Assembly: GCF_004683965.1 (NCBI RefSeq)
Contig: NZ_CP038436.1
Span: 3,844,001-3,908,000, forward strand
Reading direction: 5' to 3'
Source of the DNA: Nocardioides seonyuensis
GTDB taxonomy: Bacteria; Actinomycetota; Actinomycetes; Propionibacteriales; Nocardioidaceae
Length of the DNA: 64,000 bases
Translations under genes and position numbers: made by a program
Notes under the pieces: model-generated
The model's database searches: none
What the model was told of the DNA's origin: nothing
The model's input: the letters and a program-made list of their open reading frames with translations, nothing else
Part shown: positions 8,384 to 52,863 of the stretch, piece by piece
How the letters are laid out: each line of letters starts with the position of its first letter
Position numbering within the stretch: position 1 is the stretch's first letter

Positions 8384-8547
8384 GACGGGGCTGCTCATCC
8401 ACGGCATCGATCCAGTCCGCCGCGTGTGCCCAACGGCCCGCCACCCGCGCACGATGCCGGTCTACAGCAGCAGCGCCGAGGCCGCGACGAGGACCGCCGA
8501 ATCCGCCAGGCTCCGCACCCCTCCATTGGACACGGAGGCCTAATCAG

Positions 8548-8590
8548 AACCGCCTCTGACCTGCTGTTTTCGCAGGTCAGAGGCGGTTTT
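8548..8590. terminator. Strong bidirectional terminator at the element boundary
   Basis: A perfect 17-bp stem (AACCGCCTCTGACCTGC and its complement) with a 7-nt loop ends in TTTTCT on the plus strand. It serves the flavodoxin-fold gene and, on the minus strand, would serve the tRNA gene whose 3' end lies at 8597. Confidence 0.85.
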
Positions 8591-8596
8591 CTACTC

Positions 8597-8618
8597 GGTG
8601 GGCGATACTGGGTTCGAA
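8597..8618 (-). other. Attachment site: 3' end of a tRNA gene, truncated at the T-loop
   Basis: Read on the minus strand this is TTCGAAC-CCAGT-ATCGCCC-A-CC: a canonical T-loop, 3' T-stem, 3' acceptor strand, discriminator base and part of CCA. The 5' T-stem that should precede it (ACTGG) is absent (TCAGT is found), and no D or anticodon arm follows at higher coordinates, so this is a fragment and not a gene. Such fragments are left when tyrosine integrases recombine at tRNA 3' ends. The integrase lies 170 nt away. The implied acceptor start GGGCGAT resembles some Val/Ala tRNAs; identity is not established. Confidence 0.65.
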
Positions 8619-8769: not shown

Positions 8770-8785
8770 AAATGGGGTGCGCCCA

Positions 8786-10021
8786 GTGGCGCAACAGCGT
8801 GATCGTCGGCAGTTCGGCCAGATCCTCAAACTGGGCAGCGGGCGCTTTCAGGCAAGGTACTCCGACCCGGACGGACTCGTCACGAAGGACGGGAAGCGTC
8901 TCCGTCACAAGGCGCCGTACACCTTCGACACTCGAACCGACGCCGAAGCGTGGCTGATCGACGAACGGCGCCTCATCTCGAGTGGAACCTGGACTCCCCC
9001 GGCCGAACGCCAGGCTCGGCGACGAGAGAAGGCTCTGACCTTCGGCGAGTACGCCCCACGGTGGCTGGCCGCCCGCAAGGTCAAGGGACAACCCCTCGCG
9101 GACCGTACGCGAGACCACTACCAAGACCTGCTCGATCGGATCATCCTCCCCACGTTCGCTCACGTTGAACTCAAGGCCATCAGCCCCGAGAGGGTGGCCG
9201 ACTGGTACGACACGACTGCGCCCGACAGACCGACGACCCAAGCCCACGCCTACTCACTGCTGCGGGCCATCATGCGCACCGCTGCCGACCCGACGAAGCA
9301 CAACGGTCGTCCCCTCATCCCGTTCAACCCCTGCGGGATCTCCGGCGGCGGCTCATCTGGCTCCAAGCGCCGGGTCCGCCCCGCGACGGCGGAGGAGATC
9401 GCCACGATCGTGGCCGCGCTCCCCGAACGCCACCGCTTGCTGGTCCTGCTTGCCGACGGCTGCGCCCTCCGATTTGGCGAGCTCTGCGAGCTCCGCCGCT
9501 CCGACATTGACCTGACGAACGCGGTCATCCACGTACGCCGTGGCGTTGTCCGCTCGCGTTCCGCCGGGGTTGTAGCCAAGGCACCTAAGAGCGAGGCCGG
9601 TATCCGTGACGTGCCGATCCCGCCCGACATCGTCGACGCCGTCCGAGAGCACATCGGCCTCCACGCCGCCCCGGGACCGAAGGGTCTGTTGTTCCCTGGC
9701 CGCGACAGCGAGCACCTCTCCCCCAGCGCCTTCTACGGCAAGGTCTCCAAGAAGCGCCGCGGCAAGCTCCCGACGACCGGATGGGGTTGGTACGAAGCAC
9801 GCCGCCTCGCCGCCCGAGAGGACCTTCGCTTCCATGACCTACGCCACGGGGCGCTTACGGAAGCAGCTCGACACGGTGCCACGCTCGCAGAGCTCATGGC
9901 GCTCGGTGGTCACTCCACCAACCAAGCAGCCATGCGCTACCAGCAGGCCGCTTCGGATCGCCTGGCCGAATTGGTCCGCAAGCGGGCCGAGGCTCGAGGC
10001 TGGGCCGCGAGATCAGACTAG
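8786..10021 (+). CDS. int: Tyrosine-type site-specific integrase
   Basis: The 411-residue phage-type integrase has an arm-binding/AP2-like N-terminus (RFQARYSDPDG), a SAM-like core-binding domain (about residues 80-190) and a catalytic domain with the full set of residues: Arg in CALRFGELCELR (~229), Lys in AKAPKSEAG (~258), HDLRHG (~349-354), GGHS histidine (~374) and the tyrosine in MRYQ (~382). The GTG at 8786 is chosen (GGGGTG upstream); a GTG at 8777 adds three codons. It should integrate and excise the element at the tRNA-fragment site. Confidence 0.95.
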   Translation: MAQQRDRRQFGQILKLGSGRFQARYSDPDGLVTKDGKRLRHKAPYTFDTRTDAEAWLIDERRLISSGTWTPPAERQARRREKALTFGEYAPRWLAARKVKGQPLADRTRDHYQDLLDRIILPTFAHVELKAISPERVADWYDTTAPDRPTTQAHAYSLLRAIMRTAADPTKHNGRPLIPFNPCGISGGGSSGSKRRVRPATAEEIATIVAALPERHRLLVLLADGCALRFGELCELRRSDIDLTNAVIHVRRGVVRSRSAGVVAKAPKSEAGIRDVPIPPDIVDAVREHIGLHAAPGPKGLLFPGRDSEHLSPSAFYGKVSKKRRGKLPTTGWGWYEARRLAAREDLRFHDLRHGALTEAARHGATLAELMALGGHSTNQAAMRYQQAASDRLAELVRKRAEARGWAARSD

Positions 10022-13964: not shown

Positions 13965-13983
13965 CTACTATCCTTCATAGGAG
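13965..13983. promoter_or_regulatory. BlaI-type operator, site 1 (one mismatch)
   Basis: CTACTAT-CCTTC-ATAGGAG matches the perfect dyad at 14569 in both arms except one base (G for T). It lies 42 nt before the TTG of the DUF3093 gene. Confidence 0.55.
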
Positions 13984-14024
13984 CAGCGGCGACCCTGTGC
14001 GCCGCGCTTGGTGAGGGCTGGACT

Positions 14025-14501
14025 TTGAGCGATCCAAAAGCGGCGTTTCGCGAACGCCTTCACGTACCGGTGCGCTGGTGGCTCCTAGGCGGCTTGCTGG
14101 TGGCCAGCTTCTGGCTCGCCATGATCGTCGCGGTGCCCGAGAAGCTCGCGTGGGGCATTGCCGCCGCCTTGACCGTGCTTCTCATACTCATGCTTCGCGC
14201 CTACGGCGGCGCGCGGATCGTCGTGGCGGACGGGTGGCTTCGAGCCGGGCGGGCACGAATCGAGGTCCGATTCGTGGCGTCCGCGCGGGCTCTCGACCGA
14301 GTTGAGTCTCGTGCCGTTTGCGGGCCGCAGGCTGACGCTCGCGCATTTCTCCTGCTGCGACCATATCTCCCGCATGCCGTGCGTATCGACATCGATGACC
14401 CCACCGATCCGACGCCGTACTGGTTGGTGGCTTCGCGCAACGGCGAGGCGCTCGCTGCGTCACTGAACAGCGCCCGGCGGCCCGCCGGCGGTTCGGCCTA
14501 G
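14025..14501 (+). CDS. DUF3093 membrane protein
   Basis: The 158-residue protein has two TM helices (about residues 15-37 and 42-60) followed by a cytosolic or membrane-proximal beta-rich domain with the DUF3093-type segments VVADGWLRAGRARI and PYWLVASRNGEALAASL. The family is widespread in actinobacteria, usually as a chromosomal single copy; function is unknown. A TTG start is used because it begins the conserved part. It lies behind a BlaI-type operator, which suggests it belongs to the same regulon as the disulfide and cytochrome genes. Confidence 0.8.
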   Translation: MSDPKAAFRERLHVPVRWWLLGGLLVASFWLAMIVAVPEKLAWGIAAALTVLLILMLRAYGGARIVVADGWLRAGRARIEVRFVASARALDRVESRAVCGPQADARAFLLLRPYLPHAVRIDIDDPTDPTPYWLVASRNGEALAASLNSARRPAGGSA

Positions 14502-14568
14502 GGGACGGCTTCCCAGGGACAGCGCACTCACGGAGACCGGCTGCGGACAGTCGCCGCCCCTCCACTTG

Positions 14569-14587
14569 CTACTATCTCGCATAGTAG
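14569..14587. promoter_or_regulatory. BlaI-type operator, site 2 (perfect dyad)
   Basis: CTACTAT-CTCGC-ATAGTAG is a perfect 7-bp dyad with a 5-nt spacer, 20 nt before the GTG of the second dsbA-like gene. A blaI-like repressor is encoded at 18404-18748. Short palindromes with TACTA/TAGTA-type arms are typical of BlaI/MecI/CopY operators. Confidence 0.7.
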
Positions 14588-14607
14588 ATTCTTCGAAGGG
14601 TGGACCC

Positions 14608-15270
14608 GTGCGGAAGCAAACACTGCTGGCCATGGTGGCCGGCGCGATCGTAGTGGCGGCGCTGGCAATTCTGTTCGTCGTCAACCAGTCCGGCGAGGAC
14701 GAGGTCGGTCCTTCGGCCGTGGAGTCGCCCACCGAGGAGAACGCAATCGTCCGAGCTGACAGTCGCATTCTCGGTGAGGAGGGAACGAGCGGTGTCACGT
14801 TCGTGGAGTTCCTGGACTTCGAGTGCGAGGCGTGTGGGGCGGCCTACCCGATCGTCGAGGACCTGCGCGAGAAGTACGCGGGCGAGGTCACGTTCGTGAT
14901 CCGCTACTTCCCGCTCCCGGGCCACTTCAACTCCGAGCGGGCCGCGCGCGCGGTCGAGTCTGCTGCCCGTCAGGGCAAGCTCGAGGAGATGTACAGCAAG
15001 ATGTACGAGACGCAAGAGACTTGGGGCGAGGCTAGAGAGCCGCACGACGACCTCTTCAGGAGCTTCGCTGAGGAGCTGGGCCTCGACATGGATCAGTACG
15101 ACGCCGACTACGCCTCCGCCGAGGTCGCGGACCGGGTGGCTCGCGACATCGAGGACGGGACCACGCTCGGCGTGCAGGGAACGCCGACCTTCTACGTCGA
15201 CGGCGAGCTGTTCCAGCCCCAAAGCGTGGACGACTTTTCCACTGTCCTCGATGAGGCGCTCGCCCAGTGA
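14608..15270 (+). CDS. Membrane-anchored DsbA-type oxidoreductase (second copy)
   Basis: The 220-residue protein has an N-terminal TM anchor (about residues 4-26), a linker and a DsbA-like thioredoxin_4 domain. The active site is CEAC at ~72-75 in DFECEACGAAYP; cis-Pro lies in GVQGTPTFYVDG (~191-202). The CEAC motif differs from the CPAC of the first copy, implying a different redox potential or substrate. The GTG start has GAAGGG upstream; the ATG-like alternative at 14566 lies inside the operator. First gene of a four-gene unit with VKOR, ccdA and tlpA. Confidence 0.92.
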   Translation: MRKQTLLAMVAGAIVVAALAILFVVNQSGEDEVGPSAVESPTEENAIVRADSRILGEEGTSGVTFVEFLDFECEACGAAYPIVEDLREKYAGEVTFVIRYFPLPGHFNSERAARAVESAARQGKLEEMYSKMYETQETWGEAREPHDDLFRSFAEELGLDMDQYDADYASAEVADRVARDIEDGTTLGVQGTPTFYVDGELFQPQSVDDFSTVLDEALAQ

Positions 15271-15854
15271 CCCCGGACCGGAGGCTTTCCGCGGGCCTGG
15301 TTGTCGGTGGCTTGGCGGGTCTCGTCGCCTCCGCGGTGTTGCTCATCGAACGGATCAATCTGGCCCAGGACAGCGACTACGTCCCCAGTTGCAGCATCAA
15401 CCCCATCATCAGCTGCGGCTCGGTCATGGAGTCCGCCCAGGCCTCCCTTCTCGGCTTCCCGAACCCGCTCATCGGGGTGGCAGCCTTCCCGATCGTCGTG
15501 GCGACCGGTGCCGCACTGCTTGCCGGCGGCAGGCTCGCCCGCTGGTACTGGCTCGGGCTGCAGGCCGGCGTGTCCGCCGCGCTGGCACTCGTGATGTGGC
15601 TCGCATTCCAGAGCCTCTACCGGATCGGAGCCCTGTGCCCCTACTGCATGGTTGTGTGGGCGGTGGTGATTCCGCTGTTCTGGTACGTCACCCTCCACAA
15701 CCTAAAAAGTGGAGCTTTCGGGGAGGCGGCCGCATCATCTCGAGTGACGGCCGCGGTGCGCGCATGGCACGCACCGCTGCTGCTGGCGGCGTACCTGCTC
15801 GTCCTCGTGCTCATCACGATCCAGTTCTGGGCCTACTGGTCCACACTGCTGTGA
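15267..15854 (+). CDS. VKOR family protein (second copy)
   Basis: The 195-residue protein has five TM helices, a loop cysteine pair in SCSINPIISC (~41 and 49) and the membrane CPYC motif (~124-127). It is the quinone-linked oxidase partner of the DsbA just upstream, to which it is coupled by GTGA overlap. Shorter N-terminus than the first VKOR, and only moderate likeness outside the motifs, so the two pairs are older paralogues and not a recent duplication. Confidence 0.92.
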   Translation: MTPDRRLSAGLVVGGLAGLVASAVLLIERINLAQDSDYVPSCSINPIISCGSVMESAQASLLGFPNPLIGVAAFPIVVATGAALLAGGRLARWYWLGLQAGVSAALALVMWLAFQSLYRIGALCPYCMVVWAVVIPLFWYVTLHNLKSGAFGEAAASSRVTAAVRAWHAPLLLAAYLLVLVLITIQFWAYWSTLL

Positions 15855-15870
15855 GAGCCGAGAACCGGCC

Positions 15871-16653
15871 ATGATCAGCGGAGTCCAGGAGGCGATCCTC
15901 GACGGCTCCATGCTCGTCGCCCTTCCTATCGCGATCGCCGCAGGCCTCCTGTCCTTCTTCACCCCCTGCTCGCTCCCCCTCGTCCCGGGCTACCTCTCCT
16001 ACGTCGCTGGAATGGCAGGAGCTGAATCTGCGGTTGCACATGAGCCGGGCCGAGGCACTCCTGTCCGCCGGTCCCGCACCGTGCTGGGAGCTGCCCTGTT
16101 CGTGCTGGGATTCTCTGCGGTGTTCACCAGCTACGGGGTGGCCTTCGGCTCGCTCGGATCGCTGATGCTGGCCCACCAGGAGACGATCTGGCGCGTGGCT
16201 GGCGGGTTCACGATCGTGCTGGGGCTGCTGTTCGCGGGCGGAGCGGACCGACTCCCGCTGCTCGGTCGCACTGTGCGTCCCAGGATGACCCCCCGACTCG
16301 GGCTGGTCGGGGCGCCCGTGTTGGGTGCTGTGTTCGCTGTCGGCTGGACACCGTGCATCGGGCCGGCTCTGGCCGCCGTGCTCACCCTTGCCACCACCTC
16401 GGCCACTGCCGGGCGGGGCGCGGCCCTCTCACTCGCCTACGCCCTCGGCCTCGGGCTGCCCTTCCTGCTGGCTGCCATCTCCCTGACCCGGGCGACCCGC
16501 GTGTTCGCGTGGGTACGCCGCCGATCCCTCTGGATCACCCGCGGAGGAGGCGCGTTGCTCGTCGTCGTCGGCGTACTCCAAGTATCGGGCGTCTGGTCGC
16601 AGATCGTCGCCGCCGTACAGACACTCGTGGTCGGTTGGCAGGCCCCACTGTGA
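15871..16653 (+). CDS. ccdA: CcdA/DsbD-type transmembrane electron carrier
   Basis: The 260-residue, six-TM protein moves electrons from cytosolic thioredoxin across the membrane to reduce extracytoplasmic thiol proteins, mainly for cytochrome c heme attachment. Both conserved motifs are present: SFFTPCSLPLVPGYLSY (Cys ~33) and VGWTPCIGPALAAV (Cys ~160). Its stop overlaps the GTG of the TlpA-like gene that it would reduce. Placing a reductive branch directly behind an oxidative DsbA/VKOR pair balances the thiol system. Confidence 0.93.
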   Translation: MISGVQEAILDGSMLVALPIAIAAGLLSFFTPCSLPLVPGYLSYVAGMAGAESAVAHEPGRGTPVRRSRTVLGAALFVLGFSAVFTSYGVAFGSLGSLMLAHQETIWRVAGGFTIVLGLLFAGGADRLPLLGRTVRPRMTPRLGLVGAPVLGAVFAVGWTPCIGPALAAVLTLATTSATAGRGAALSLAYALGLGLPFLLAAISLTRATRVFAWVRRRSLWITRGGGALLVVVGVLQVSGVWSQIVAAVQTLVVGWQAPL

Positions 16654-17267
16654 ACGCTCGGATCCCGCGGGGCGCGGTCGTCGGCGTGCTCCTGGTGGCG
16701 GCGCTCGTCGCTGCGTGGATGCTCTTCGTGCGGCCTGATGCGCCCGAATCCGGCTCGGCCGGCGGGTCACCCAACGCCACCGATGTGGTCCAGCAGTACG
16801 AACCAGGTGACCGGCGATCGATCACCGCTTTCATCGCCTCGCTGCTCGACGGCACCGAGTTGAACAGTGAGGATCTGCTCGGTCGGCCCACCGTGGTCAA
16901 CTTGTGGGGCTCGTGGTGCGTTCCGTGCAGAGACGAGGCGCCGGACCTCGTGCGCGTTGCCCGCGATTTCGAAGGCCGAGTCCGCTTCCTCGGTCTCAAC
17001 GTCCGCGACAGCCCCGACGCGGCGCGCGCGTTCGAGCGGGCCTTCGAGGTCCCCTACCAGAGCGTGCATCCAGACGACAGTGCCCGCACGATCCTCGCCT
17101 TCAACGGAGCACTCACAGCCGCCGCCATTCCCACGACGGTCGTGCTCGACAGCGAAGGCAGGGTCGCCGCGCGCGTCGTGGGACAGGTCGATGCCACCAC
17201 CCTACGAGGCCTCATCACCGACGTGCTCGACCAGACCACAAGGCCAGCGGCCGGTGCGCGAGACTGA
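16650..17267 (+). CDS. TlpA/ResA-like thioredoxin
   Basis: The 205-residue membrane-tethered thioredoxin has a TM anchor at about residues 7-25 and a redoxin domain (about 60-190) with the active site WGSWCVPCRDE (Cys ~90 and 93) and AAIPTTVVLDSEG near the cis-proline. It receives electrons from CcdA and should keep apocytochrome c cysteines reduced for heme ligation, in partnership with the ResB/CcsA proteins encoded on the opposite strand. A GTG start overlapping the ccdA stop is used. Confidence 0.92.
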   Translation: MNARIPRGAVVGVLLVAALVAAWMLFVRPDAPESGSAGGSPNATDVVQQYEPGDRRSITAFIASLLDGTELNSEDLLGRPTVVNLWGSWCVPCRDEAPDLVRVARDFEGRVRFLGLNVRDSPDAARAFERAFEVPYQSVHPDDSARTILAFNGALTAAAIPTTVVLDSEGRVAARVVGQVDATTLRGLITDVLDQTTRPAAGARD

Positions 17268-17438
17268 GGTTCCGAGGGCTCCCCTCGCGCTCGGGGCCAT
17301 CTAGGGCCGCCGCATCGCGGGAATGGCGCTGGCCGCCCACGGTCGCGCCAGCCCAGTCATTGCAACAACAGGACCGACGGGCTCAAGGGCTGTCGGAGCT
17401 GACCGGCCGAGAGCCGCCTGGCCGAGGGGTGGCCAGCT

Positions 17439-18398
17439 TCAAGCCCGCGCGGGGGGCGCAGTCAGGGAGCAGCAGTCCCTCGTTGCTGCTTCGATCGCCG
17501 GCGCCAACGCCAGTCCCACTGGGACCGAAAGCGCCACGACCGAAGCTACGCCCACCAGGAGTCCCGCCCCTCGCCGAGGCGGCGAGGGCGTAGCGGTCAG
17601 GCGCCGCACGCGCTGCAGGGCAGCAGTGTCGCTGGCGGCCAAGGCGGCCTCGGGACGCACTCCAGTGCTCAAGGCCACCAATGCCTTAGCCAGGACCCTG
17701 CGGTCTTCGACGCCGGAGGCCGCATCGTCAGCGGTCATCTCCAGGAGGACTGTCACCTGTTCGTGGGCCGCGGTAAATAGTGGAACCCACGGGAAGGTCC
17801 GCGTGAGTGCGTCGGCGTAGGCGAGCGCGAGGTGGTGTCTAGCCCGCAAGTGTCGATGCTCGTGACCGAGCACCAGTTCGCGTTCACGGTCGGTGAGGAT
17901 CTCGAGAGCGGCGGTGGAGAGCACCACGGTGCCCGATCCTCCGGGCAGGCAGTAGGCGACGGGTACGGCGTGGTCGATGACGGTGAAGCCATCCGGATGC
18001 GGGCTCCCCACGAGAAGAAGTGCATCACGCTGTGATCGGCGGACGCGCGCCGTGCGCCAGTAGGTGCACGCGGTCGTGGCCGCGAGCATGGCGGCGCACA
18101 ACGCGGCGATACCGAGGCTGGCGACGCCCGGCAAGATTCCGAGCGGGGTCTCGTAGTGCTCGACGACGGTGATGGTGTGTGCGCCGAGCAGGTAGGCCAG
18201 AGAGAACCGCATCGGCAGGAATGGCAACGCAAGGGCGACCGCGGCCAGCAGGATTGCCAACACCACGGACGTGGACACAACCTGCCACCCCAGAATCGCT
18301 GCGCGGGGAGCACGCGTCGACCAGGGTCTGCGGAGGAGCCGGACACCCACGACACCGACGGTCGTGGCGTAGGCGAGCAACAGGAGCGCCGCGATCAC
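17439..18398 (-). CDS. M56 family (BlaR1/MecR1-like) membrane metallopeptidase
   Basis: The 319-residue integral membrane protein has three to four N-terminal TM helices, a cytosolic zinc-protease loop with LVLGHEHRHLRARHH (HExxH at ~180-184) and a C-terminal TM segment (near 290-310). It lacks a penicillin-binding sensor domain, as in the actinobacterial BlaR homologues. Expected role: on an unknown signal, cleave or inactivate the BlaI-type repressor encoded 5 nt upstream. The GTG start is set by that spacing. Convergent with the tlpA-like gene. Confidence 0.9.
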   Translation of the reverse strand: MIAALLLLAYATTVGVVGVRLLRRPWSTRAPRAAILGWQVVSTSVVLAILLAAVALALPFLPMRFSLAYLLGAHTITVVEHYETPLGILPGVASLGIAALCAAMLAATTACTYWRTARVRRSQRDALLLVGSPHPDGFTVIDHAVPVAYCLPGGSGTVVLSTAALEILTDRERELVLGHEHRHLRARHHLALAYADALTRTFPWVPLFTAAHEQVTVLLEMTADDAASGVEDRRVLAKALVALSTGVRPEAALAASDTAALQRVRRLTATPSPPRRGAGLLVGVASVVALSVPVGLALAPAIEAATRDCCSLTAPPARA

Positions 18399-18403
18399 GT
18401 GAG

Positions 18404-18748
18404 CTACTCCACTCGCTCGGTGAGGGCGGCCGCCTCCCCTGGTTCCATCCGGCCCACCAGGTGCATCAGCGCCGCGGTGCGGTCGTCGCTCTCGGCCAGC
18501 ACTTCCTGCAGCATCTCCGCGGTGTATTCCTCACGCGTGGAGGCGGGCACGTAGACGTAGGCCTTGCCGTGCTTCTCCCGCCGGACCAGTCCCTTAGAGT
18601 GCAAGTTGTCCAGGACGGTCATGACCGTGGTGTAGGCCAACGGCCGTTCCTGACTGATGTCCTCGAGCACCTCACGCACCGACGCGGGCTTGCCAAGTCC
18701 CCATAGACGCTGCATCACCGTGGCCTCGAGCTGGCCCAGCTGTCTCAC
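18404..18748 (-). CDS. blaI: BlaI/MecI/CopY family transcriptional repressor
   Basis: The 114-residue winged-helix protein shows the family signature: LEATVMQRLWGLGKPASVRE, then TTVMTVLDNLHSKGLVRREK (recognition helix and wing) and AYVYVPASTREEY before a C-terminal dimerisation helix. These repressors bind short palindromes as dimers. Three matching dyads lie in this window, one in front of this very operon, so autoregulation is likely. GTG start overlapping the copD/ctaG stop (GTGA). The inducer (copper, redox or cell-wall stress) is not shown by the sequence. Confidence 0.93.
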   Translation of the reverse strand: MRQLGQLEATVMQRLWGLGKPASVREVLEDISQERPLAYTTVMTVLDNLHSKGLVRREKHGKAYVYVPASTREEYTAEMLQEVLAESDDRTAALMHLVGRMEPGEAAALTERVE

Positions 18749-20820
18749 GGGCGGTCCCCCTGCTCCTGGTGGATGTCTTCACTACGACGGCCCATCGTAG
18801 GCGGAGTCGCCCCGCGGGTCTCTTCCGCGCGAGCGAGGGCGCCCAAATAGTTGTTGTACGCCGTCAGCTCGCGGTCCTGTCCTCGAGCCTCCCGTCGATC
18901 GAACCGTCGGCGCTCTCGTCCATCCGCGCGGACCCACGACACGAGGAGGGCCGCTGCCATGACGGCCAGCGGGTACTCCCCCAGTGCCCACCCCAGTGAA
19001 GCTCCGAGGTACTGGTCGTCGGCGAGACTCCTGCCCCAAGGCCGACTTAGAGCCTCGAACCACTGGCGCGCCAGCACGGTGCTGGTGGCCATCAGGCTCA
19101 CGGCGAAGAGCGCATGGAACCCGAACGTGACCATGACGAGGAGGACGCGCAGCGGATAGGGCGGCCGACGAAGTCCGGGATCGGAGCCCACCACGGACTC
19201 AGCGAAGAGATAGCCCGCCAACAGAAAGTGGAGCGTCATCAACACGTGGGCGGTGTGGGACTCCAGCGATGCCTCGAACAGCGAGGAGGAGGAGTAGAAG
19301 ACCACCATGCTGACCACGAACATCACCGCCGCCACGATGGGGTGGCCCAACAGCTGGACCGGCAGCGCGTGCACGACCCCAAGCAGCCATTCGCGCGGCC
19401 CCTGAGATCCGTCGTCGCGACGGCGGAGCGTCCGCAGAGCCAGGGTCACCGGGGTGCCGAGCACCAAGAACACGGGCACGCTGGTGGCGATCGTCATGTG
19501 CTGGACCATGTGCATGCTGAAGAGGACCCGCCCGTAGGCGCCAGGCGCCCCGTTGGTTGCCCACAGGAAGAGAAGGCATCCCACCACCCACGAGGTCGTG
19601 CGCCACCACGCCCACGCCGCGCCGCGTCGACGCAGGCGGCGCACCGACCAGAGGTACCAGGCGATGCCAGCGACCCCGAGGGGCAGGAACAGCGTGTCCA
19701 AGTCCCAGGACGTGAACCATCCAGCGGCGTCCAACGGTTCCGGGAGCGAGCGCCCCAGCAACGACTCCGACGCGGTGAGTGGCCGGGCGCCGCCGTCCGG
19801 GGCGGGTGGCGCAGTACGACTCAGTGCGACGCCGAGGCCAGCGGTGCCTGAGAGCACGGCCAGTTCCACGGACACCAGCCACCAGAACGCCCCCGAGTCG
19901 CCCGCCTCCAGCCTTGCCATGGTGCGACGGCGCTGCCACCATCCGGCCCCGGCCAAAGCGCTGACGGCGGTGAGTTTCATCCCCAGCAGCAGGCCGTACG
20001 GAGACGCCACGGAAGCGATGGAGGGAAGCCGCAGCCACGCGGCGAACAAGCCGGACATCGTCACCAGGACGACGCACCATCCCGCAAGCGTGGAGTAGCG
20101 GCGAACCGTCGGCCCCAGTCCCCCTCCCAACTGTCGGCGCACCACGACCAGCGACACAAGCCCACCCATCCAGACGGCGATGCCGAGCAGGTGGAACATC
20201 TGGAGGTTGACGGCCTCGTCGTGATTGAGAATGCCCGCAGCGTGGCCGGTGAGGGCGATCGGCCATAGTCCTACCACTGCGATCACGGTCGTGACTCCGA
20301 CGCCGCCCATGCGCGAGGACATGGCACAGCCAAGCGCCACGAGTGCGGCGAAACCGGCTCCCCAGAGGGCGTACCGGCCGAGTTCAAAGCGCACGAAGAA
20401 GAAGACTGCCTGCTCGGTGAAGCCTGGAGCGTGCAGGGCCGTGCCTGAAACATCCGAGTAGACCAGCACGATCAACAATCCGCTGGTGAGCGCCCAGGCT
20501 GACGCCGCGAACTGGGCCAGCGCAACCAGCCTCCGCTGTGCGCCACTGAGCTTGTTCAGCTCTGCCTCGCGCGCGGCGGGGACGCACGTCGTGGCCAGAA
20601 CCAGGGCGCCGACGGTCGTCAGAGCGGCGACGTCGCGAAGGGTCTGGACGAGTGGCAGTCCCACCCGGGTCGCGGCGCCGGGGTCGGGCAGACCGACGAT
20701 GCCGAGCGGTGCCAGAGCGCCTACCAAGCCAGCCGCGGTGAGAGCAACGGCCACTGCCCACGCGGGTGTAGCCAGTGCCACAGCTGCAGCTCGCGCATGG
20801 TTGCCGATCGAGGCACTCAT
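18745..20820 (-). CDS. CopD-CtaG fusion: copper import / cytochrome oxidase assembly
   Basis: The 691-residue polytopic protein joins an N-terminal CopD-type domain (about residues 1-330, with the heme/Cu-like HLLGIAVWMGGLVSLVVVRR segment near 210) to a C-terminal caa3-type CtaG domain (about 400-650, with HMVQHMTIATSVPVFL and HFLLAGYLFAESVVG histidines). Such fusions occur in actinobacteria and handle copper for cytochrome c oxidase. The ATG at 20820 is used because it overlaps the copC stop (ATGA); longer starts read into copC. Basic, glutamine-rich C-terminal tail. Confidence 0.92.
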   Translation of the reverse strand: MSASIGNHARAAAVALATPAWAVAVALTAAGLVGALAPLGIVGLPDPGAATRVGLPLVQTLRDVAALTTVGALVLATTCVPAAREAELNKLSGAQRRLVALAQFAASAWALTSGLLIVLVYSDVSGTALHAPGFTEQAVFFFVRFELGRYALWGAGFAALVALGCAMSSRMGGVGVTTVIAVVGLWPIALTGHAAGILNHDEAVNLQMFHLLGIAVWMGGLVSLVVVRRQLGGGLGPTVRRYSTLAGWCVVLVTMSGLFAAWLRLPSIASVASPYGLLLGMKLTAVSALAGAGWWQRRRTMARLEAGDSGAFWWLVSVELAVLSGTAGLGVALSRTAPPAPDGGARPLTASESLLGRSLPEPLDAAGWFTSWDLDTLFLPLGVAGIAWYLWSVRRLRRRGAAWAWWRTTSWVVGCLLFLWATNGAPGAYGRVLFSMHMVQHMTIATSVPVFLVLGTPVTLALRTLRRRDDGSQGPREWLLGVVHALPVQLLGHPIVAAVMFVVSMVVFYSSSSLFEASLESHTAHVLMTLHFLLAGYLFAESVVGSDPGLRRPPYPLRVLLVMVTFGFHALFAVSLMATSTVLARQWFEALSRPWGRSLADDQYLGASLGWALGEYPLAVMAAALLVSWVRADGRERRRFDRREARGQDRELTAYNNYLGALARAEETRGATPPTMGRRSEDIHQEQGDRP

Positions 20821-21416
20821 GCGTCGGGGTCTCGCTTCAAGAGCCGCACTGCCGCGAGGACTGTGAGGAGGAGCAAGGACAGCACGGCAACGGCAGCGGC
20901 TACCAGGCCCCACGGGATGTCGCTGTCGTCCCCGCCGGAAGGGGGTGAGGTATGGGCTTCCTCTCCCGCAGGTGTCGGCGCGGCGCTGGTGCGCTCCTCC
21001 CTCGGCGCATCGGCGGTACGTACGGTGAATGACGATTCCCCCGCGACGGGATGGCCGTCCTTGGAGACCACTCGGAACGCGGACCGCCAGCGCGACACCG
21101 TGCCGGGCTGTGCCGCCAAGGAGGAGGGCACCGTCGCGACCAAGATGCTGGCGGACCGTCCGGCTGTCACCTCAAGGGTCGTGGGTGCACCGCCGTCAAC
21201 TTGCACGGTCACCGTACTCAGCCCGGGATCCATCTCCTCGGAGAACTCCAAGGTCAACTCACTGGGGACCTTCTCGAGCCCAGCCCCATCGGCGGGATCC
21301 ACCGAGATCAGGTCGGTGTGCGCCGCCGCCGGACCGGCGAGCAGGCAAGCTGTCACGACCCCGACCATCGCGGCGAGGAGCGCGGGCACCCACCGCACGC
21401 GCACGTGGCTCACCAT
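20817..21416 (-). CDS. copC: CopC domain protein, membrane-anchored
   Basis: The 199-residue protein has a signal peptide whose predicted cleavage (GPAAA|HTDL) leaves histidine at the mature N-terminus, the Cu(II) ligand typical of CopC. The CopC beta-barrel (about 33-130) ends in SKDGHPVAGESSFTV, with the second conserved His. A Pro/Ser-rich spacer and a C-terminal TM helix (about 168-190) follow. Adjacent to CopD, to which it probably passes copper. Start overlaps the small upstream ORF. Confidence 0.92.
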   Translation of the reverse strand: MVSHVRVRWVPALLAAMVGVVTACLLAGPAAAHTDLISVDPADGAGLEKVPSELTLEFSEEMDPGLSTVTVQVDGGAPTTLEVTAGRSASILVATVPSSLAAQPGTVSRWRSAFRVVSKDGHPVAGESSFTVRTADAPREERTSAAPTPAGEEAHTSPPSGGDDSDIPWGLVAAAVAVLSLLLLTVLAAVRLLKRDPDA

Positions 21417-21511
21417 CGTGCCCTCGAGATGAGGTACAGCACCAGAACGGTAGCAACCAACGAGACGAGTCCGATGATGACCGTCGAGAGGCCGGGTCCA
21501 GAAACATCCAT
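21410..21511 (-). CDS. 33-residue single-TM protein in the cytochrome/copper operon
   Basis: This very small gene starts with ATG after AGGAG at 7 nt, lies 4 nt behind the ccsA stop and overlaps copC by 7 nt. The product begins MDVSGPGLSTVIIGLVSLVA, has one TM helix (about 8-29) and a short basic end (SRARW). Its position beside ccsA recalls CcmD, a tiny helper of cytochrome c maturation, but no sequence signature proves this. Start, spacing and hydrophobicity argue that it is real. Confidence 0.6.
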   Translation of the reverse strand: MDVSGPGLSTVIIGLVSLVATVLVLYLISRARW

Positions 21512-21515
21512 GAAG

Positions 21516-22430
21516 TCACACTCCTGCGTATGAGTGGAGGCCCGGGATCCACAGGTTGACCCCGAAGAAGTTGAACAGGAAGGCCAGAAAGCCAGACACG
21601 GCGAGCAGCGATGCCCCGCGGCGCCAACCGCTCGTCGACAGCGCGTGGAGATGGGCGGCGTAGAGAACCCAGGTGATGAAGGCCCAAGTCTCCTTGGGAT
21701 CCCAGCCCCAGTAGCGTCCCCAGGCGTTTTCGGCCCAGACCGCACCGGCGATCACGGCGAAGGTCCAGATCGGGAAGGCAACCAGGTGGACGGTGTGCGC
21801 CAAGGAAGCGAACGGGTCGTCATCGCCGCCCCGCCCGCGCCGTATCAGGTGGGCAAGCGTCGCGATCGCCCCTAGGGTGAAGAGCGCTCCCGCCACGATC
21901 GCCGCGGCCACGTGCACGACCAGCCAGCGTGAATTCAGCACTGGCACCAGGTCGTCCACGGGCGTGTAGAGAGAGGTAACCGACACGCCCAGCAGCACCA
22001 GCACCACGGCCACCAGCCATGCCGCAAGACCACCCACAGGCCGACCACGCAGGTAGGCGAGGAATACGACCGCGACCGCTGCCGAGCCGGTCAGGCCGAA
22101 CTCGTACATGTTGCCCCACGGAGCCCGCCCCGCGGCAAACCCCCGGGCCACCACCGCCAAGCACACCAGCACCGTGCCGAGCACCGTGAAAGCGGTGCCC
22201 ACCTGGCCGATGCCCCGGGCGCGGCCCGATATGCGCGAGCCTGTACTCGTGGAGCTGTCACGACCCGGCGGCGGGCCACCGGCCGGGACTGTGAGCAGGG
22301 TGGCCCGCGACACGGCCGGGCGCGAGACCGCCGCTGAGACGGCATACAGGGCGAGCGCCAAGGCAAACACGGCCAGGGCCGACGTGACGAGACCGTCGGA
22401 GACGCTCCCCAGGTCGAGCTGTTTCATCAT
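21516..22430 (-). CDS. ccsA: CcsA/CcsB-type cytochrome c biogenesis protein
   Basis: The 304-residue, about eight-TM protein is the heme-handling subunit of system II cytochrome c maturation. It carries the tryptophan-rich WWD-type region WGRYWGWDPKETWAFITW (about residues 241-258) and flanking histidines (HVAAAI, HTVHL, HLHALS). It works with ResB to export heme and ligate it to CXXCH. The ATG at 22430 (or the adjacent ATG at 22427) overlaps the resB stop; upstream in-frame starts lie within resB. Confidence 0.94.
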   Translation of the reverse strand: MMKQLDLGSVSDGLVTSALAVFALALALYAVSAAVSRPAVSRATLLTVPAGGPPPGRDSSTSTGSRISGRARGIGQVGTAFTVLGTVLVCLAVVARGFAAGRAPWGNMYEFGLTGSAAVAVVFLAYLRGRPVGGLAAWLVAVVLVLLGVSVTSLYTPVDDLVPVLNSRWLVVHVAAAIVAGALFTLGAIATLAHLIRRGRGGDDDPFASLAHTVHLVAFPIWTFAVIAGAVWAENAWGRYWGWDPKETWAFITWVLYAAHLHALSTSGWRRGASLLAVSGFLAFLFNFFGVNLWIPGLHSYAGV

Positions 22431-24052
22431 CGATCCTCCTCTAGGCCGCCGGCGTCTGTCGGCGGCAGACCGACGGCCGCGGCCACATCCGTCAACTCGC
22501 CGGGTGGCAATGGGCGCCGCGACAACGAGCGCCCGGCCACCTCGATGGTCCCGTCGCTTGCCCGCCGCACCCAGATCCGTCTGCGACGTACGGCGAGCGA
22601 GGCGGTGAGACCCGTGAGCAGGAGGATCGCCGCTACAAGTGAGATCTCCTTGCCCGGGTCGCGGGCGACCTGGAAGTTGGCGAACCGGGAGACACCGCCA
22701 AATGTCACCGACCCCAGCCCGTCTGGCAGCTGAACGGTCTGGCCCAGAGCGAGCGACACCCGCCACGGCTCCCCGTTCCCGCGCTCCACCCTTTCCAGGT
22801 CGGTGAAGTCGAGGGTGAAGACCGATTGCGGGCTGCCCTTGTCCAGACCGAGGTCCCCGAAGTAGGCGGTGAGCTGGACGATCGGGTTGGCCAAGTCGGG
22901 ATAGGCCGACACGCTCATCCCCTCTGGGCCGTTCACCGCCGTGGGAAGGAAGAGACCCTGGAAGGCCAAGGACGTTGGTCGGGCGTCCGGCGCCTTCACC
23001 ACTCCATCGGAGGTGAAGGCCTGATCCATGGGCAGAAAGATGGTCGGCCCCGACGCCGCTACGTCACCGTTGCCGTCGCGCACGGTCAGCTGCGGCGCAT
23101 AGCCGTGGCCGGTCAAGAAGAACTTCGTGCCGTTGATGTCCAGCGGCCGGTTCGGCCGAACAGCGAAGGTGCCGTCACCCTCCTCAGCGCTGCGGTAGGA
23201 CACCGTCGCCTCGAATGCGCGCGGCTCTCCGAACCGTGGCCCGCTGTTCTCGAACTCGGCGACGAAGTCCTCGAGCGTCAGGTCCAGCGGCTCGAGGCCT
23301 GCAACGTCGGCCCACGGTGCGGGAGTCATTGCGTCGTACGAGGAGGCCACGTTGGCGAACGTAGTGTCCTCGACGAGCGCGACCCGCCCCTCGTAGCCGA
23401 ACAATCGACCGCCTGCTACGCCGATGAGGAGCACGAGCAGAGAGAGGTGGAAGGCCAAGTTGCCGAGCTCACGGACCTGGCCCTTCTCGGCCCGGACCTC
23501 GTCGCCGTCGCGCAGCACCCGGAAGCGACGACGGCGGAGGTGGGTCACCGCAGTGTCCAGGGCAACGTCCACGTCACGCACGTGCCCGCTCCGATATCCG
23601 GCCTCCTTGGACAGACGTCGCGGTGCGGCCGGCGGCACCGAGCGGACCTCATGCCACAGCCGAGCACACCGGGGCACGACGCATCCGGTCATGGAGACTA
23701 GAAGGAGCACATAGACCGCAGCGAACCACGGTGCGCTGTAGACATCGAAGAGCGACAACCGATCCAGCCACGGCGCAAGCTCTGGGTGCTCACGGTAGAA
23801 GTTGGGCACGGCCGAGGGATCGCTGGCAACGCCTCGCTGAGGCAGCAACGACCCGGGCACCGACGTGAGAGCAAGCAGGATGAGCAGCACCACCGCCGTG
23901 CGCATAGCCGTCAGCCGGCGCCAAGCCCAGCGGCTCCAGGCCACCAGCTCCGAAGGCCCGCCAGGGTCTGTCCCGCGGACGGGCGCGGGACGGTTCCCCT
24001 CCGCGACATCCGTGCCACCGGTCCGGTGCGCTCCTCGAGACTCCACCACCAC
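22427..24052 (-). CDS. resB: ResB-type cytochrome c biogenesis protein
   Basis: The 541-residue protein has the ResB layout: three N-terminal TM helices (about 50-70, 105-125, 190-215), a large extracytoplasmic domain (about 215-480) and a last TM near 495. Seen motifs are TAVVLLILLALTSVPGSLLPQRG at the first helix (shown here only in part: TSVPGSLLPQRG) and AFHLSLLVLLIGVAGG with a conserved His. First gene of the seven-gene reverse operon. A GTG at 24052 (or 24049) directly abuts the operator, so the mRNA leader must be very short or absent. Confidence 0.92.
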   Translation of the reverse strand: MVVESRGAHRTGGTDVAEGNRPAPVRGTDPGGPSELVAWSRWAWRRLTAMRTAVVLLILLALTSVPGSLLPQRGVASDPSAVPNFYREHPELAPWLDRLSLFDVYSAPWFAAVYVLLLVSMTGCVVPRCARLWHEVRSVPPAAPRRLSKEAGYRSGHVRDVDVALDTAVTHLRRRRFRVLRDGDEVRAEKGQVRELGNLAFHLSLLVLLIGVAGGRLFGYEGRVALVEDTTFANVASSYDAMTPAPWADVAGLEPLDLTLEDFVAEFENSGPRFGEPRAFEATVSYRSAEEGDGTFAVRPNRPLDINGTKFFLTGHGYAPQLTVRDGNGDVAASGPTIFLPMDQAFTSDGVVKAPDARPTSLAFQGLFLPTAVNGPEGMSVSAYPDLANPIVQLTAYFGDLGLDKGSPQSVFTLDFTDLERVERGNGEPWRVSLALGQTVQLPDGLGSVTFGGVSRFANFQVARDPGKEISLVAAILLLTGLTASLAVRRRRIWVRRASDGTIEVAGRSLSRRPLPPGELTDVAAAVGLPPTDAGGLEEDR

Positions 24053-24071
24053 ATACTATCTCGGATAGTAG
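24053..24071. promoter_or_regulatory. BlaI-type operator, site 3, between resB and lnt
   Basis: ATACTAT-CTCGG-ATAGTAG matches site 2 at 17 of 19 positions. It occupies the whole gap between the divergent resB and lnt genes, so one bound repressor could block both. It also places blaI under its own control. Confidence 0.7.
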
Positions 24072-24092
24072 ATGCTCTGTTCAGGAGGTCGA

Positions 24093-25628
24093 GTGGTCAT
24101 CACTGGAGGCGAGCGGGCGGCTGCGGCCATTGTCGGTGGGCTCGCCCTCGCTGCGGCATTCCCGCCCTTGTCTGCGCCGTGGCTCGCACCCCTCGGCCTG
24201 GTTGCCTTCTTCCTGGCTGTGGGTCACTGGGGCGTTCGCGCCGGGTCCCTGACCGGGTTCGTGTTCGGCCTGGCGTTCTTCGGCCCCACCCTGTGGTGGC
24301 TGGCGCAGGCGATCGCCCCTGCAGCTTGGGCGGCGATAGTGGCCCTGCAAGCGGGCTGGCTCGCACTGCTCGGTGCCGGAGTGGTGCTCGTGCGCCGTCT
24401 GCCGTACTGGCCCATTTGGGCGGCCGCCCTCTGGACTTCCGTCGAGGGGGCGCGGTCCGCAGTTCCCTGGGGCGGCCTGCCCTGGGGCCGCGTCGGCTAC
24501 ACCGCTGTAGAGACCCCATGGGCCGCCTCGCTTGCCCTGGTGGGTGTTGCTGGGACGAGTGCGCTCGTGGCACTGGTCGGTGCCATCCTCGCGGCAACGG
24601 TCGAGGCAATGCGCGAAAGACGCCCGGCGCTGGTTCTCACGCGCCCCATGCTGGTCTCATGCACGGTCGCCTCTGGTCTGCTCCTCGCGTCCACGACAGT
24701 CCTCCAGACGGGGCACGCAGACACCGAGTCTTCCCGGCGAAGTCCCACAGCGAGGGTTGCCGTAGTCCAGGGCGAAGTGCCTGGCACCGGCACAGACGTC
24801 GTCTCCCACCACCGCCAGGTCACCCGCACCCTGCTCGACGAGACGCGTCGACTGGCCCAGCTCCTCGGCCCCGAAGAGCCGCCTCCCGACCTGGCCGTGT
24901 GGCCGGAGAACGCCACCGCCGTGGATCCCGCCGCCGACTCCACGGCTCGAGAGGCGCTCCTCGCCGCAGCGGAGGCATCCCAGGCCCCGGTGCTGGCCGG
25001 GTCGGTGGTGGACGGCGTTTCTCCCTCGACGGCACTCAACCAGGGCATCGTGTGGACGGCCGACGGCGACCAGGGTCGCTACACCAAGCAACACCTCGTG
25101 CCGTTCGGCGAGTACGTCCCCTTGAGGTCCCTTGCGAGCCGGGTCTCCTCACGCGTGTCGGACATTCATCGCGACATGTTGCCCGGTCCTCCCAGTTCAC
25201 CCCTGAGGGCGGGCGGACTCGTGCTCGCCAACGCCCTCTGCTTCGATGTGGCATACGACGACGTCCTCCGAGAACAGGTCGCCCAAGGCGCCCAGTTGGC
25301 CGTCGTCCAGACAAGCAACGCCATGTTCCTCGGGACGGGACAGCAGGAGCAGCAGTGGATGATCACCCGTGCGCGCGCCATCGAGCTCGGGCGCCCCATC
25401 GTTGTCTCCTCGATGAACGGCATCTCCGGTGCAATCGCATCCGACGGAAGTGTCATCACGCGATTACCTGGCGTACGCGCAGCCAGCAAGATGGTCACGG
25501 TGCCGTTGATGACGGAGACCACTCCCGCCGTGCGCATGGGCTCGTGGCCGGCGCGCATGGTCTACGTCATGGCTTTCGTGGGGATCCTGACTGCGGGGAT
25601 TCGTGCTAGCCGCCGCAGAGGGCAATGA
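24093..25628 (+). CDS. lnt: Apolipoprotein N-acyltransferase
   Basis: Adds the third acyl chain to the N-terminal cysteine of lipoproteins at the outer face of the membrane. The 511-residue protein has five to six N-terminal TM helices (about 1-200), a carbon-nitrogen hydrolase domain (about 220-480) with the catalytic triad in AVWPENAT (Glu ~271), TKQHLVPFGEY (Lys ~331) and NALCFDVAY (Cys ~382), and a final TM helix. The GTG at 24093 has AGGAGG upstream; an ATG at 24072 is an alternative but lacks one. An extra lnt under BlaI control and on a mobile element is unusual. Confidence 0.93.
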   Translation: MVITGGERAAAAIVGGLALAAAFPPLSAPWLAPLGLVAFFLAVGHWGVRAGSLTGFVFGLAFFGPTLWWLAQAIAPAAWAAIVALQAGWLALLGAGVVLVRRLPYWPIWAAALWTSVEGARSAVPWGGLPWGRVGYTAVETPWAASLALVGVAGTSALVALVGAILAATVEAMRERRPALVLTRPMLVSCTVASGLLLASTTVLQTGHADTESSRRSPTARVAVVQGEVPGTGTDVVSHHRQVTRTLLDETRRLAQLLGPEEPPPDLAVWPENATAVDPAADSTAREALLAAAEASQAPVLAGSVVDGVSPSTALNQGIVWTADGDQGRYTKQHLVPFGEYVPLRSLASRVSSRVSDIHRDMLPGPPSSPLRAGGLVLANALCFDVAYDDVLREQVAQGAQLAVVQTSNAMFLGTGQQEQQWMITRARAIELGRPIVVSSMNGISGAIASDGSVITRLPGVRAASKMVTVPLMTETTPAVRMGSWPARMVYVMAFVGILTAGIRASRRRGQ

Positions 25629-26940: not shown

Positions 26941-26944
26941 GACC

Positions 26945-35300: not shown

Positions 35301-35894
35301 AGCCCCGTCACCCCCCGAAACGCCCGCTCGGGTGGCAGCCACCTCCCGCTCGAAGAACTCGAGTATGTCCGCCACGGCAGCATGATGCGCTTCGACGATT
35401 CGCTCCTGTGTCGGGGCATCAGCCAGCCCCCACAACACCGAGACCGACTTCGGGACGCTGAAGGTCAGGTCGAACCCCGCGACCGCATTTCGGGCACCAG
35501 CGGCAGTCTCCTCGGCTTCGATCCGGCTGGTCTCGGCGGCGCAGTCCGCCAGGGTCATCTCGGGATCGAGCGCGTCGACACGCTCCTGGATGCGCTCGGC
35601 AACAGGCCGGTACCTCGCGTAGGCGCGGCCTAACTGCTCCCCCGTCAGCGGATCCCTGCCCATGCCGATCAGCAGGGCGAGCTGCGCCTCGGCCACCTCC
35701 ATGCCAGGAGCCAGCTGACCGCTGCCGAGACGTCGTACGCCTGACCCCATCCAGCGCCCCGGTGGGGTGCCGGCCTCGGTGTAGTAGCGGGTGAGCGGAG
35801 TCGACAGGGCGCGGTTGCCGTCACCGACCACAACGCTTCGCAGCAGATACCGGTAGCCGTTGCCCGCTGACATGCGACGCAGCGAGACAGTCAC
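32373..35894 (-). CDS. traA: MobF family relaxase with RecD-like helicase (TraA/TrwC type)
   Basis: The 1173-residue protein nicks and unwinds the element for conjugation. The N-terminal TrwC relaxase domain (about residues 1-330) has the three-His metal site in SRAGDPQLHTHLVVSNK (~213-229) and N-terminal tyrosines (YRYLL, TRYYTEAG). The helicase part has Walker A VGPAGAGKTTAMRAL (~548-562), Walker B-like VIVDEATLAGTT (~620) and C-terminal motifs DLGYAVTAHRAQGMTVD and VSMTRGRDSN. A GTG start is used. Divergent from the pilus operon; its upstream region is a candidate oriT. Confidence 0.95.
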   Translation of the reverse strand: MTVSLRRMSAGNGYRYLLRSVVVGDGNRALSTPLTRYYTEAGTPPGRWMGSGVRRLGSGQLAPGMEVAEAQLALLIGMGRDPLTGEQLGRAYARYRPVAERIQERVDALDPEMTLADCAAETSRIEAEETAAGARNAVAGFDLTFSVPKSVSVLWGLADAPTQERIVEAHHAAVADILEFFEREVAATRAGVSGGDGAVAQVEVAGVAAVAYDHYDSRAGDPQLHTHLVVSNKVQAWLDGRWRSLDGRPVFASVTALSAHYNALLADRLSRELGVEWELRERGSDRNAQWEIAGIGEDLVREFSSRSREIDLEKDRLIDEYVAAHGRMPSEKKIVELRATATLATRPPKEIRSLAELTAEWRQRASDRLGCDATAMATGLLGELSAEPLVADEVPLPAIHALGADVVAKVSLKRSTWTHWNVMAEASKQTMDLRFASTTDREAVVAMIVDAAQQQSIALTPPELAPSPAAFRRPDGTSVFRPRHSVKYSSVGVLDAETRLLDRSEVLGAPTVGRAIVDRVAKHETLSVEQVAALEAIAASGRQLDLLVGPAGAGKTTAMRALRHAWLAQHGQGSVVGLAPSAAAAQALAGDLGIACDNTAKWLHEFDRGAAAFRSGQLVIVDEATLAGTTTLDQISAIASAAGAKVLLVGDPNQLQSVDAGGAFGLLVDRRSDAAQLTLIHRFRHDWEKAATLDLRSGNAEVISTYARHDRLREGDTDRMIDSAYESWRLDTQAGLASVLLTESAHAVRALNERARAERLVHDGADEGCEIHLADGVRASVGDVVITRRNDRTLRAMSSGWVKNGDRWRITDIRKDGSVVLRRVDPGCQGSAVLPADYVAQHLDLGYAVTAHRAQGMTVDTSHVVVTPSTTRENLYVSMTRGRDSNIAYVALDQPDDSHTPPKTEDISARTVLYGVLQHSGASLSAHKTIEAQHEEYASIAQLAAELEMIAAAAQHDRFADLLRRSGLTDEQHTAVIESTAFGPLSATLRRAEAHHHDLERLMPRIVSQHRLDDADDLAAVLRHRLEKVAALGPRGNRARPRLIAGLIPEPLGPMAPEDRQAIADRATLIESRARVLAEEALGSGAVWVNGLGSTPREIDVREPWLMEVVTVAAYRDRYRIVSDQPVGRGVDDDAQKSDRERALLALRRARAAVAQRPVRPSADLSSPAVAGP

Positions 35895-52808: not shown

Positions 52809-52863
52809 GGCGGCGAGTCTTCCAGCCGGTCCTCGCAATGCCGTGGGCGCGTACCTCGTGCAG

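Follow-up and report, generated by a model that had tools for sequence, protein, structure and literature searches.

A BlaI-family repressor, its M56 protease and a conserved dyad suggest a metal- or redox-responsive envelope regulon on a predicted integrative conjugative element of Nocardioides seonyuensis

Genes for BlaI repressors and M56 proteases are commonly named after penicillin resistance. In Nocardioides seonyuensis such a pair lies among genes for disulfide formation, cytochrome c maturation, copper handling and lipoprotein acylation, in the company of a 19-bp dyad, CTACTAT-N5-ATAGTAG. What does the pair control there, and to what signal does it answer? The locus is part of a stretch of 64,000 nucleotides (NCBI RefSeq assembly GCF_004683965.1, contig NZ_CP038436.1, positions 3,844,001 to 3,908,000 of the forward strand), called the window here. 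An earlier reading of its letters without database searches (the sequence-only reading) proposed that the dyads are BlaI-type operators uniting these genes in one candidate regulon. That proposal is supported by a sole genomic BlaI, by co-occurrence specific to one BlaI type, by promoter placement and by footprint-like conservation. The evidence makes it probable that the locus is a BlaI/BlaR1-like regulon on an integrative conjugative element (ICE) of ~75 kb, which would be induced by extracytoplasmic copper or another thiol-active metal through Cys and His residues of the M56 protein and would supply spare envelope factors. Beyond the earlier proposal, the set is element-borne and duplicates core genes, its BlaI is of a type other than the chromosomal one, and its M56 protein has no beta-lactam sensor.

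The window holds three dyads, each 19 bp long with a 5-bp spacer. They stand where the sequence-only reading placed them, before the DUF3093 gene, before dsbA-VKOR-ccdA-tlpA, and between resB and lnt (Table 1). Shuffled window sequence gives 0.07 sites at up to 3 mismatches, and a search of the whole 3.97-Mb, single-contig genome at up to 2 mismatches finds no site besides these three; a reversed pattern has no match in the genome at that threshold. Thus, the unrelated occurrences that had been named as a threat to the proposal are absent at this threshold. A weaker site ahead of blaI is a possible internal operator, although it is ambiguous because it overlaps coding sequence.

The window BlaI, a protein of 114 residues without cysteine, belongs to family PF03965 (91.2 bits against a cut-off of 22.6), and the locus holds the only match to that family in the genome. 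Its best similarity among NCBIfam models is to the CopY/TcrY copper repressors, at 38.4 bits against a cut-off of 121.95 and without the C-terminal CxC motifs. The classical repressors of beta-lactam resistance score 26.6 against 180 bits (BlaI_of_BCL) and 22.2 against 250 bits (MecI_of_mecA). Both assignments were rejected, as was the classical operator TACA-N2-TGTA, since the conserved dyad is CTACTAT-N5-ATAGTAG instead.

A tree of BlaI proteins from loci of the genus and the order (67 rows, the Mycobacterium tuberculosis BlaI not among them) sets 31 non-island proteins apart from 33 others (support for the 33, 95/84), with 3 outliers. The 33 consist of 22 proteins from dyad-bearing islands together with plasmid and other-genus proteins. 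In the region of the recognition helix, non-island BlaI typically reads RLAKK, RLARK or similar and island BlaI mostly NLHSK or NLHRK; the window BlaI has NLHSK. Within 300 bp upstream, 28 of the 31 non-island actinobacterial blaI genes (L082-L118) have a CTAC[TG]AC-N5-GT[AC]GTAG dyad (CTACTAC/CTACGAC type) at up to 2 mismatches, apparently the general autoregulatory operator of these genes, and a CTACTAT-type dyad precedes none of the 31 (shuffled sequence gives 0.06). In island dyads position 7 is T in 79% and C in 9%, a count made on sites collected with a T pattern. These sequences suggest that dyad positions 7/13 change with the BlaI type, C/G versus T/A, paired with residues of the recognition helix. 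The present genome has no chromosomal-type BlaI, its sole BlaI being of the island type. The label "BlaI-type operator" is apt for the architecture, the same 19 bp and 5-bp spacer being found before chromosomal actinobacterial blaI, and not for the classical TACA-N2-TGTA sequence. These data also bear on whether another regulator, such as an ArsR-family protein, binds the dyads while BlaI is a passenger. Relatives have eight dyad-linked ArsR-family genes, and an ArsR-family gene is present in the window too. However, that gene belongs to a cation-efflux operon at a distance of 23 kb and has no dyad in its vicinity, positions 7/13 follow the BlaI type, and dyads of the same architecture precede chromosomal-type blaI itself, which leaves a passenger BlaI very unlikely.

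Dyads were sought in 96 genomes, namely this one, another 58 from its genus and 37 from its order. At least two sites are present in 18 of the 59 genus genomes, a single site in 2 and no site in 39; most sites of the 18 fall in one or a few clusters, commonly of 10-30 kb and wider in G013, G023 and G041. At order level, sites are scattered and number one to three in 19 of the 37 genomes, for the most part not exceeding the reversed-pattern controls. Because the reversed pattern also matches, isolated sites with 2 mismatches mean little, and the weight lies on clustering. Island-type BlaI is present in 17 of the 18 genus genomes with at least two dyads and in 0 of the 41 others (p 6.5e-14, a Fisher value that is optimistic and overstates independence because relatives share descent); for chromosomal-type BlaI the counts are 9 of 18 and 10 of 41 (p 0.07). 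Among the best 80 of at least 596 named BlaI loci, 23 contain 50 dyads at up to 2 mismatches, with 0-1 in shuffles. The nearest named carriers are Nocardioides (N. glacieisoli, N. lacusdianchii, N. cremeus, N. halotolerans and others); beyond that genus, dyads occur at loci of Arthrobacter, Cryobacterium, Blastococcus and Nonomuraea and in metagenome-assembled genomes assigned to Micromonosporaceae and Pseudonocardiales.

In 21 clusters fetched from 17 genomes, this one included, 87 of 92 sites fall in the 250 bp ahead of a predicted gene start, compared with 27.5% of random positions; 3 lie inside genes and 2 elsewhere. The same genes recur at the dyads in varying arrangement: dsbA (12), blaI (9), tlpA and ArsR regulators (8 each), resB (7), a family of proteins ending in NHxDHVHVT (6), ccdA and cation diffusion facilitator (CDF) pumps (5 each), FliL-domain proteins (4), copC, lnt, DUF3093, DUF3105 and DsbD-cupredoxin fusions (3 each), and a P1B-ATPase (1). 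At 11 orthologous dsbA promoters the arms are 93.1% identical, the spacer 30.2%, the 40 bp upstream 31.9% and the 30 bp downstream 34.4%; at 10 orthologous resB promoters the values are 95.9%, 47.6%, 31.8% and 37.9% (the G016 and G037 loci in this comparison are a close pair). Arm conservation amid near-background flanks is footprint-like. The actinobacterial -10 consensus is TANNNT. Since the TACTAT/TAGTAT of the arms fits this consensus and the sites lie close to gene starts, a bound BlaI dimer would cover the promoter. The same fit could mean that the dyads are not operators, and that -10 boxes on the two strands were conserved for promoter function alone. Nothing in a -10 box, however, calls for a 19-bp palindrome whose two arms are conserved around a free 5-bp spacer, and the dyad is missing from the rest of the genome at up to 2 mismatches; a purely promoter role is scarcely credible.

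The M56 protein, of 319 residues, has the features of BlaR1/MecR1, a membrane gluzincin protease with HExxH and a downstream Glu. Its C-terminus lies 12 residues past the last predicted helix, and thus there is no SxxK sensor domain; no C-terminal extracellular beta-lactam sensor domain was found in this protein. Segments predicted to face outward carry Cys and His, and a Cys in the tail is present in 24 of 24 proteins of the island type and 0 of 28 of the chromosomal type. The protein seems to have traded its antibiotic sensor for cysteines that could respond to metals or redox stress. The sequence-only reading had already placed a BlaI-like repressor and an M56 protease inside the last operon, where blaI and M56 are indeed the final two genes, and had seen no beta-lactamase or penicillin-binding protein; a Pfam run on all 65 open reading frames (ORFs) of our own gene call in the window matched none to such a family at E 0.001. 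A classical beta-lactam-responsive BlaI/BlaR1 pair with its beta-lactamase elsewhere would have a repressor and a protease of these same superfamilies. It is highly improbable here, given an M56 protein without SxxK domain, the 0 of 65 matches, and a genome with no further dyad at up to 2 mismatches through which a distant beta-lactamase could be controlled.

The gene identities (DUF3093, DsbA, VKOR, CcdA, TlpA, M48/M56 protease, BlaI, CopD-CtaG, CopC, CcsA, ResB and Lnt) were confirmed with Pfam/NCBIfam. The two main operons converge at tlpA/M56. On the minus strand the order is resB-ccsA-(small ORF)-copC-copD/ctaG-blaI-M56, with lnt divergent from resB; resB to M56 looks like one transcript because the genes overlap or are closely spaced. 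Autoregulation, also part of the sequence-only reading, is supported in relatives, where a dyad lies within 250 bp upstream of 9 of 22 island blaI genes, and in the window depends on that single transcript or on the weak site. The small ORF next to ccsA could serve the cytochrome c machinery as a CcmD-like partner.

Table 1. Dyads, genes of the locus and features of the element (window coordinates).
Feature	Position	Strand	Remarks
attL-like copy of 77-bp direct repeat	8542..8618	none	94.8%; repeat comparison
Tyrosine integrase of element	8777..10021	+	Pfam PF00589
Dyad 1	13965..13983	none	1 mismatch; upstream of DUF3093 gene
DUF3093 protein	14025..14501	+	Pfam; second genome copy at G000:C1:3438743
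Dyad 2	14569..14587	none	perfect, 0 mismatches; 21 bp upstream of dsbA
DsbA-like thioredoxin	14608..15270	+	CEAC; Pfam
VKOR (DsbB-type oxidase)	15267..15854	+	Pfam
CcdA (DsbD transmembrane family)	15871..16653	+	Pfam
TlpA/ResA-like thioredoxin	16650..17267	+	CVPC; Pfam, NCBIfam
M56/M48-type membrane metalloprotease	17439..18398	-	HEHRH; no beta-lactam sensor domain; Cys-containing C-terminal tail
BlaI/MecI/CopY-family repressor	18404..18748	-	sole PF03965 match in genome
CopD-Caa3_CtaG fusion (CtiP-like)	18745..20820	-	start uncertain, up to 20913
Weak dyad	18782..18800	none	3 mismatches; inside copD-ctaG, 33 bp upstream of blaI
CopC	20817..21416	-	Pfam
Short one-helix membrane protein	21410..21508	-	partly conserved (50 and 59%) in two related clusters
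CcsA/CcsB haem handling protein	21516..22430	-	Pfam, NCBIfam
ResB	22427..24052	-	second genome copy at G000:C1:1059093
Dyad 3	24053..24071	none	1 mismatch; between resB and lnt, abutting resB start
Apolipoprotein N-acyltransferase Lnt	24072..25628	+	start more likely GTG at 24093; second genome copy at G000:C1:3631542
TrwC-type relaxase	32373..35894	-	Pfam; sole one in genome
ArsR-family regulator	47308-47703	+	element-borne, no dyad
Three cation-efflux-family proteins	47700-48482, 48479-49168, 49865-50776	+	element-borne, no dyad
PEMT/ICMT-family methyltransferase	49161-49865	+	element-borne, no dyad
DUF305 protein	50934..51725	+	same element
Other copy of 77-bp repeat	83508-83584 (= L202:19508-19584)		over 3' end of tRNA-Val(cac)

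The integrase, relaxase, coupling protein and 77-bp repeat at tRNA-Val show the locus to be cargo of a ~75-kb element in that tRNA gene. With integrase, relaxase, coupling protein and tRNA direct repeats all present, the element is a predicted ICE, which may excise and transfer. The coupling protein (TraG/TraD) lies with an ArdC-type antirestriction protein within ~10 kb of the tRNA-Val end; among mating-pair components there are TrbL and AAA_10 matches, both below cut-offs. Other window genes include Tad-type genes (T2SSE, T2SSF, TadE), a Prim-Pol protein and, besides the TrbL match, a weak ParB match. Relatives of the relaxase (36-60%) occur in four other dyad clusters, and a 78% relative of the integrase in one. 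Further copies stand elsewhere in the genome, all without dyads: a resB-ccsA-ccdA-tlpA set (1.059 Mb), an lnt gene (3.63 Mb) and a DUF3093 gene (3.44 Mb). Host functions are thus supplied a second time by the element.

Metal pumps or oxidase genes accompany related sets in other islands and on plasmids. In plasmids of Mycolicibacterium, Streptomyces, Gordonia and Rhodococcus, BlaI-M56 has as neighbours a varying selection of resB, ccsB, tlpA, ccdA, VKOR, lnt, P-type ATPase and cytochrome oxidase genes. In a survey of five of 123 matching records (one, from Nonomuraea, an 11.9-Mb record in which the stretch is unannotated), a dyad at up to 2 mismatches is present in 4 of the 5, and on Gordonia pKB1 the sites lie before ctaD and between a thioredoxin gene and lnt. 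Plasmids pJCM12603 and pKB1 (L077, L079) have cytochrome c oxidase subunit genes beside BlaI-M56.

How might such a set work? A BlaI dimer would bind the dyads at the promoters and repress three units: DUF3093; dsbA-VKOR-ccdA-tlpA; and lnt with the resB-ccsA-copC-copD/ctaG-blaI-M56 operon divergent from it. The signal may be copper or another thiol-active metal outside the cytoplasm, or the resulting disulfide damage, and would act on the Cys and His in the two outward-facing M56 segments, upon which the cytosolic zinc site of the protease would cleave BlaI. The derepressed cell would make a second set of the envelope assembly factors that copper poisons, while CopC, CopD-CtaG and other element genes would handle the metal. 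The copper targets named in the portion of PMC7558416 used here include cytochrome c biogenesis and periplasmic thiol-disulfide oxidoreductases. Tolerance by target replacement fits because the set doubles copper-targeted functions and adds metal handling. Gene content and the Cys/His pattern of the M56 protein thus make the copper or envelope-redox signal of the sequence-only reading plausible; other possible signals are zinc, cadmium, silver and respiratory stress.

The same repressor and targets could instead answer to respiratory or energetic stress, which has been proposed for mycobacterial BlaI, or to general envelope stress, with a regulon that tunes cytochrome bcc-aa3 biogenesis. ResB, CcsA, CcdA, TlpA and CtaG all serve cytochrome c and oxidase assembly, cytochrome oxidase genes stand beside BlaI-M56 on two plasmids, and a cytochrome bd gene family is present in four islands. 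The M. tuberculosis BlaI is reported, in the part of PMC5473688 used here, to bind promoters of cytochrome bd and of ATP synthase, and the BlaR of that species has no outer sensor domain; because of this link to respiration, the alternative keeps an appreciable minority of the weight. However, lnt, DUF3093, CDF pumps and CopC misfit a purely respiratory set, the RLAKK-like helix of the M. tuberculosis protein belongs to the separate chromosomal type that this genome lacks, and the outer Cys and His are specific to the island-type protease. A respiratory signal is therefore judged unlikely.

Several observations, besides the shared descent of the relatives, weigh against the favoured reading of a metal-induced BlaI regulon. 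Island BlaI does not form one clean clade (6 label changes, with plasmid and other-genus proteins intermixed), so that separation of the type rests on the deeper split supported at 95/84. The reversed pattern has 0-8 matches per genus genome; G057 has two weak dyads on a 33-kb contig and no island-type BlaI; 57 of the best 80 named BlaI neighbourhoods, mostly Streptomyces, have no dyad, nor does one of the five plasmid loci. Foldseek found nothing below E 0.001. The choice of inducer is a guess based on the genes present: CPC is missing from 7 of 16 island P-type ATPases, a single P-type ATPase gene is dyad-linked, and the element's CDF pumps, ArsR/MerR regulators and truncated Cad transporter could equally mean zinc, cadmium or lead.

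If the favoured reading is true, a group of BlaI-M56 pairs on actinobacterial mobile elements senses extracytoplasmic metal or thiol stress and turns on replacement essential envelope machinery, so that tolerance to metals would come from replacing the poisoned targets and not from pumping alone. It would also offer a testable account of how a BlaR1 scaffold changes its input, with an operator code (C/G versus T/A at 7/13) matched to helix residues. A broader idea is put forward only tentatively and may well prove too general: that actinobacterial ICEs and plasmids carry a metal-inducible "spare envelope" kit under a BlaR1-type protease, a Cys/His site replacing the beta-lactam sensor and the kit being insulated from chromosomal BlaI by its own BlaI type and operator code. 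Its modular contents would be second copies of the host's cytochrome c maturation, disulfide, lipoprotein and peptidoglycan-remodelling genes and, on some plasmids, haem-copper oxidase genes. The Cys/His site would form between extracellular loop 1 and the C-terminal tail, which correspond to the two BlaR1 elements that switch by contact.

Other parts of the element deserve mention. Direct repeats at 25327-25705 / 26934-27313 (80-88%) and 25803-25853 / 27367-27417 (51 nt, 100%) reveal that the 3' part of lnt, with the sequence after it, was partially duplicated. Between the copies lie a FliL-domain gene (26108-26527), with no flagellar context seen nearby and a family found in five other dyad clusters and dyad-linked in four, and a truncated Cad (cadmium transporter) frame (26686-27189), which extends into the repeat. 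The protein of 27366-28292 ends in NHLDHVHVTVY and has no Pfam match; we would guess at a peptidoglycan peptidase. Its family is dyad-linked in six other clusters, and no dyad at up to 4 mismatches lies near the window gene. A second DsbA-like/VKOR pair (10318-11810) is followed by a multicopper oxidase with a cupredoxin domain (11975-13906), in the same element and without a dyad. A MerR-family regulator and a YnfA/UPF0060 protein are encoded at 52479-53579, and a second YnfA-family gene (1304-1636) lies outside the element. Finally, a 1238-aa protein of the same element (L202:3630-7343) has the PIN domain of the TPR-GreAB-C-PIN system and is possible defence or regulatory cargo.

Among known systems, the best solved-structure relative of the window BlaI is 2g9w (E 2e-19), a chain with RLAKK that we take to be Rv1846c, the M. 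tuberculosis BlaI. The BlaI-BlaR pair of that species (Rv1846c/Rv1845c) likewise has an M56 partner without outer sensor domain and targets that include respiratory genes, as described in the part of PMC5473688 used here. It differs in that 2g9w has the RLAKK of the chromosomal type and the window BlaI NLHSK, and that part of PMC5473688 makes no mention of control of cytochrome c maturation, dsbA-VKOR or lnt. BlaR1-BlaI and MecR1-MecI of Staphylococcus aureus share the repressor family PF03965, the protease fold and HExxH, whereas the window system is without the beta-lactam sensor, the TACA-N2-TGTA operator and beta-lactam resistance targets. In Gram-negative bacteria, the Scs (suppressor of copper sensitivity) proteins and CutE/Lnt tie thiol-disulfide proteins and lipoprotein N-acylation to copper tolerance; regulator and cell envelope differ from those here, and the likeness noted is one of function. 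CopY/CopR copper repressors have the family and copper genes among the targets in common with the window BlaI. CopY-type repressors have a CxC metal motif, according to the section of PMC7253601 consulted; the window BlaI, without cysteine, has none, and sensing must therefore lie outside it. In Corynebacterium glutamicum CtiP-CopC, as far as the portion of PMC9145763 used here describes it, a CopD-CtaG fusion acts with CopC, is needed for the aa3 oxidase and is proposed to supply copper. The window has the same combination of CopD-CtaG fusion and CopC, but borne by a mobile element and set in an operon with BlaI-M56.

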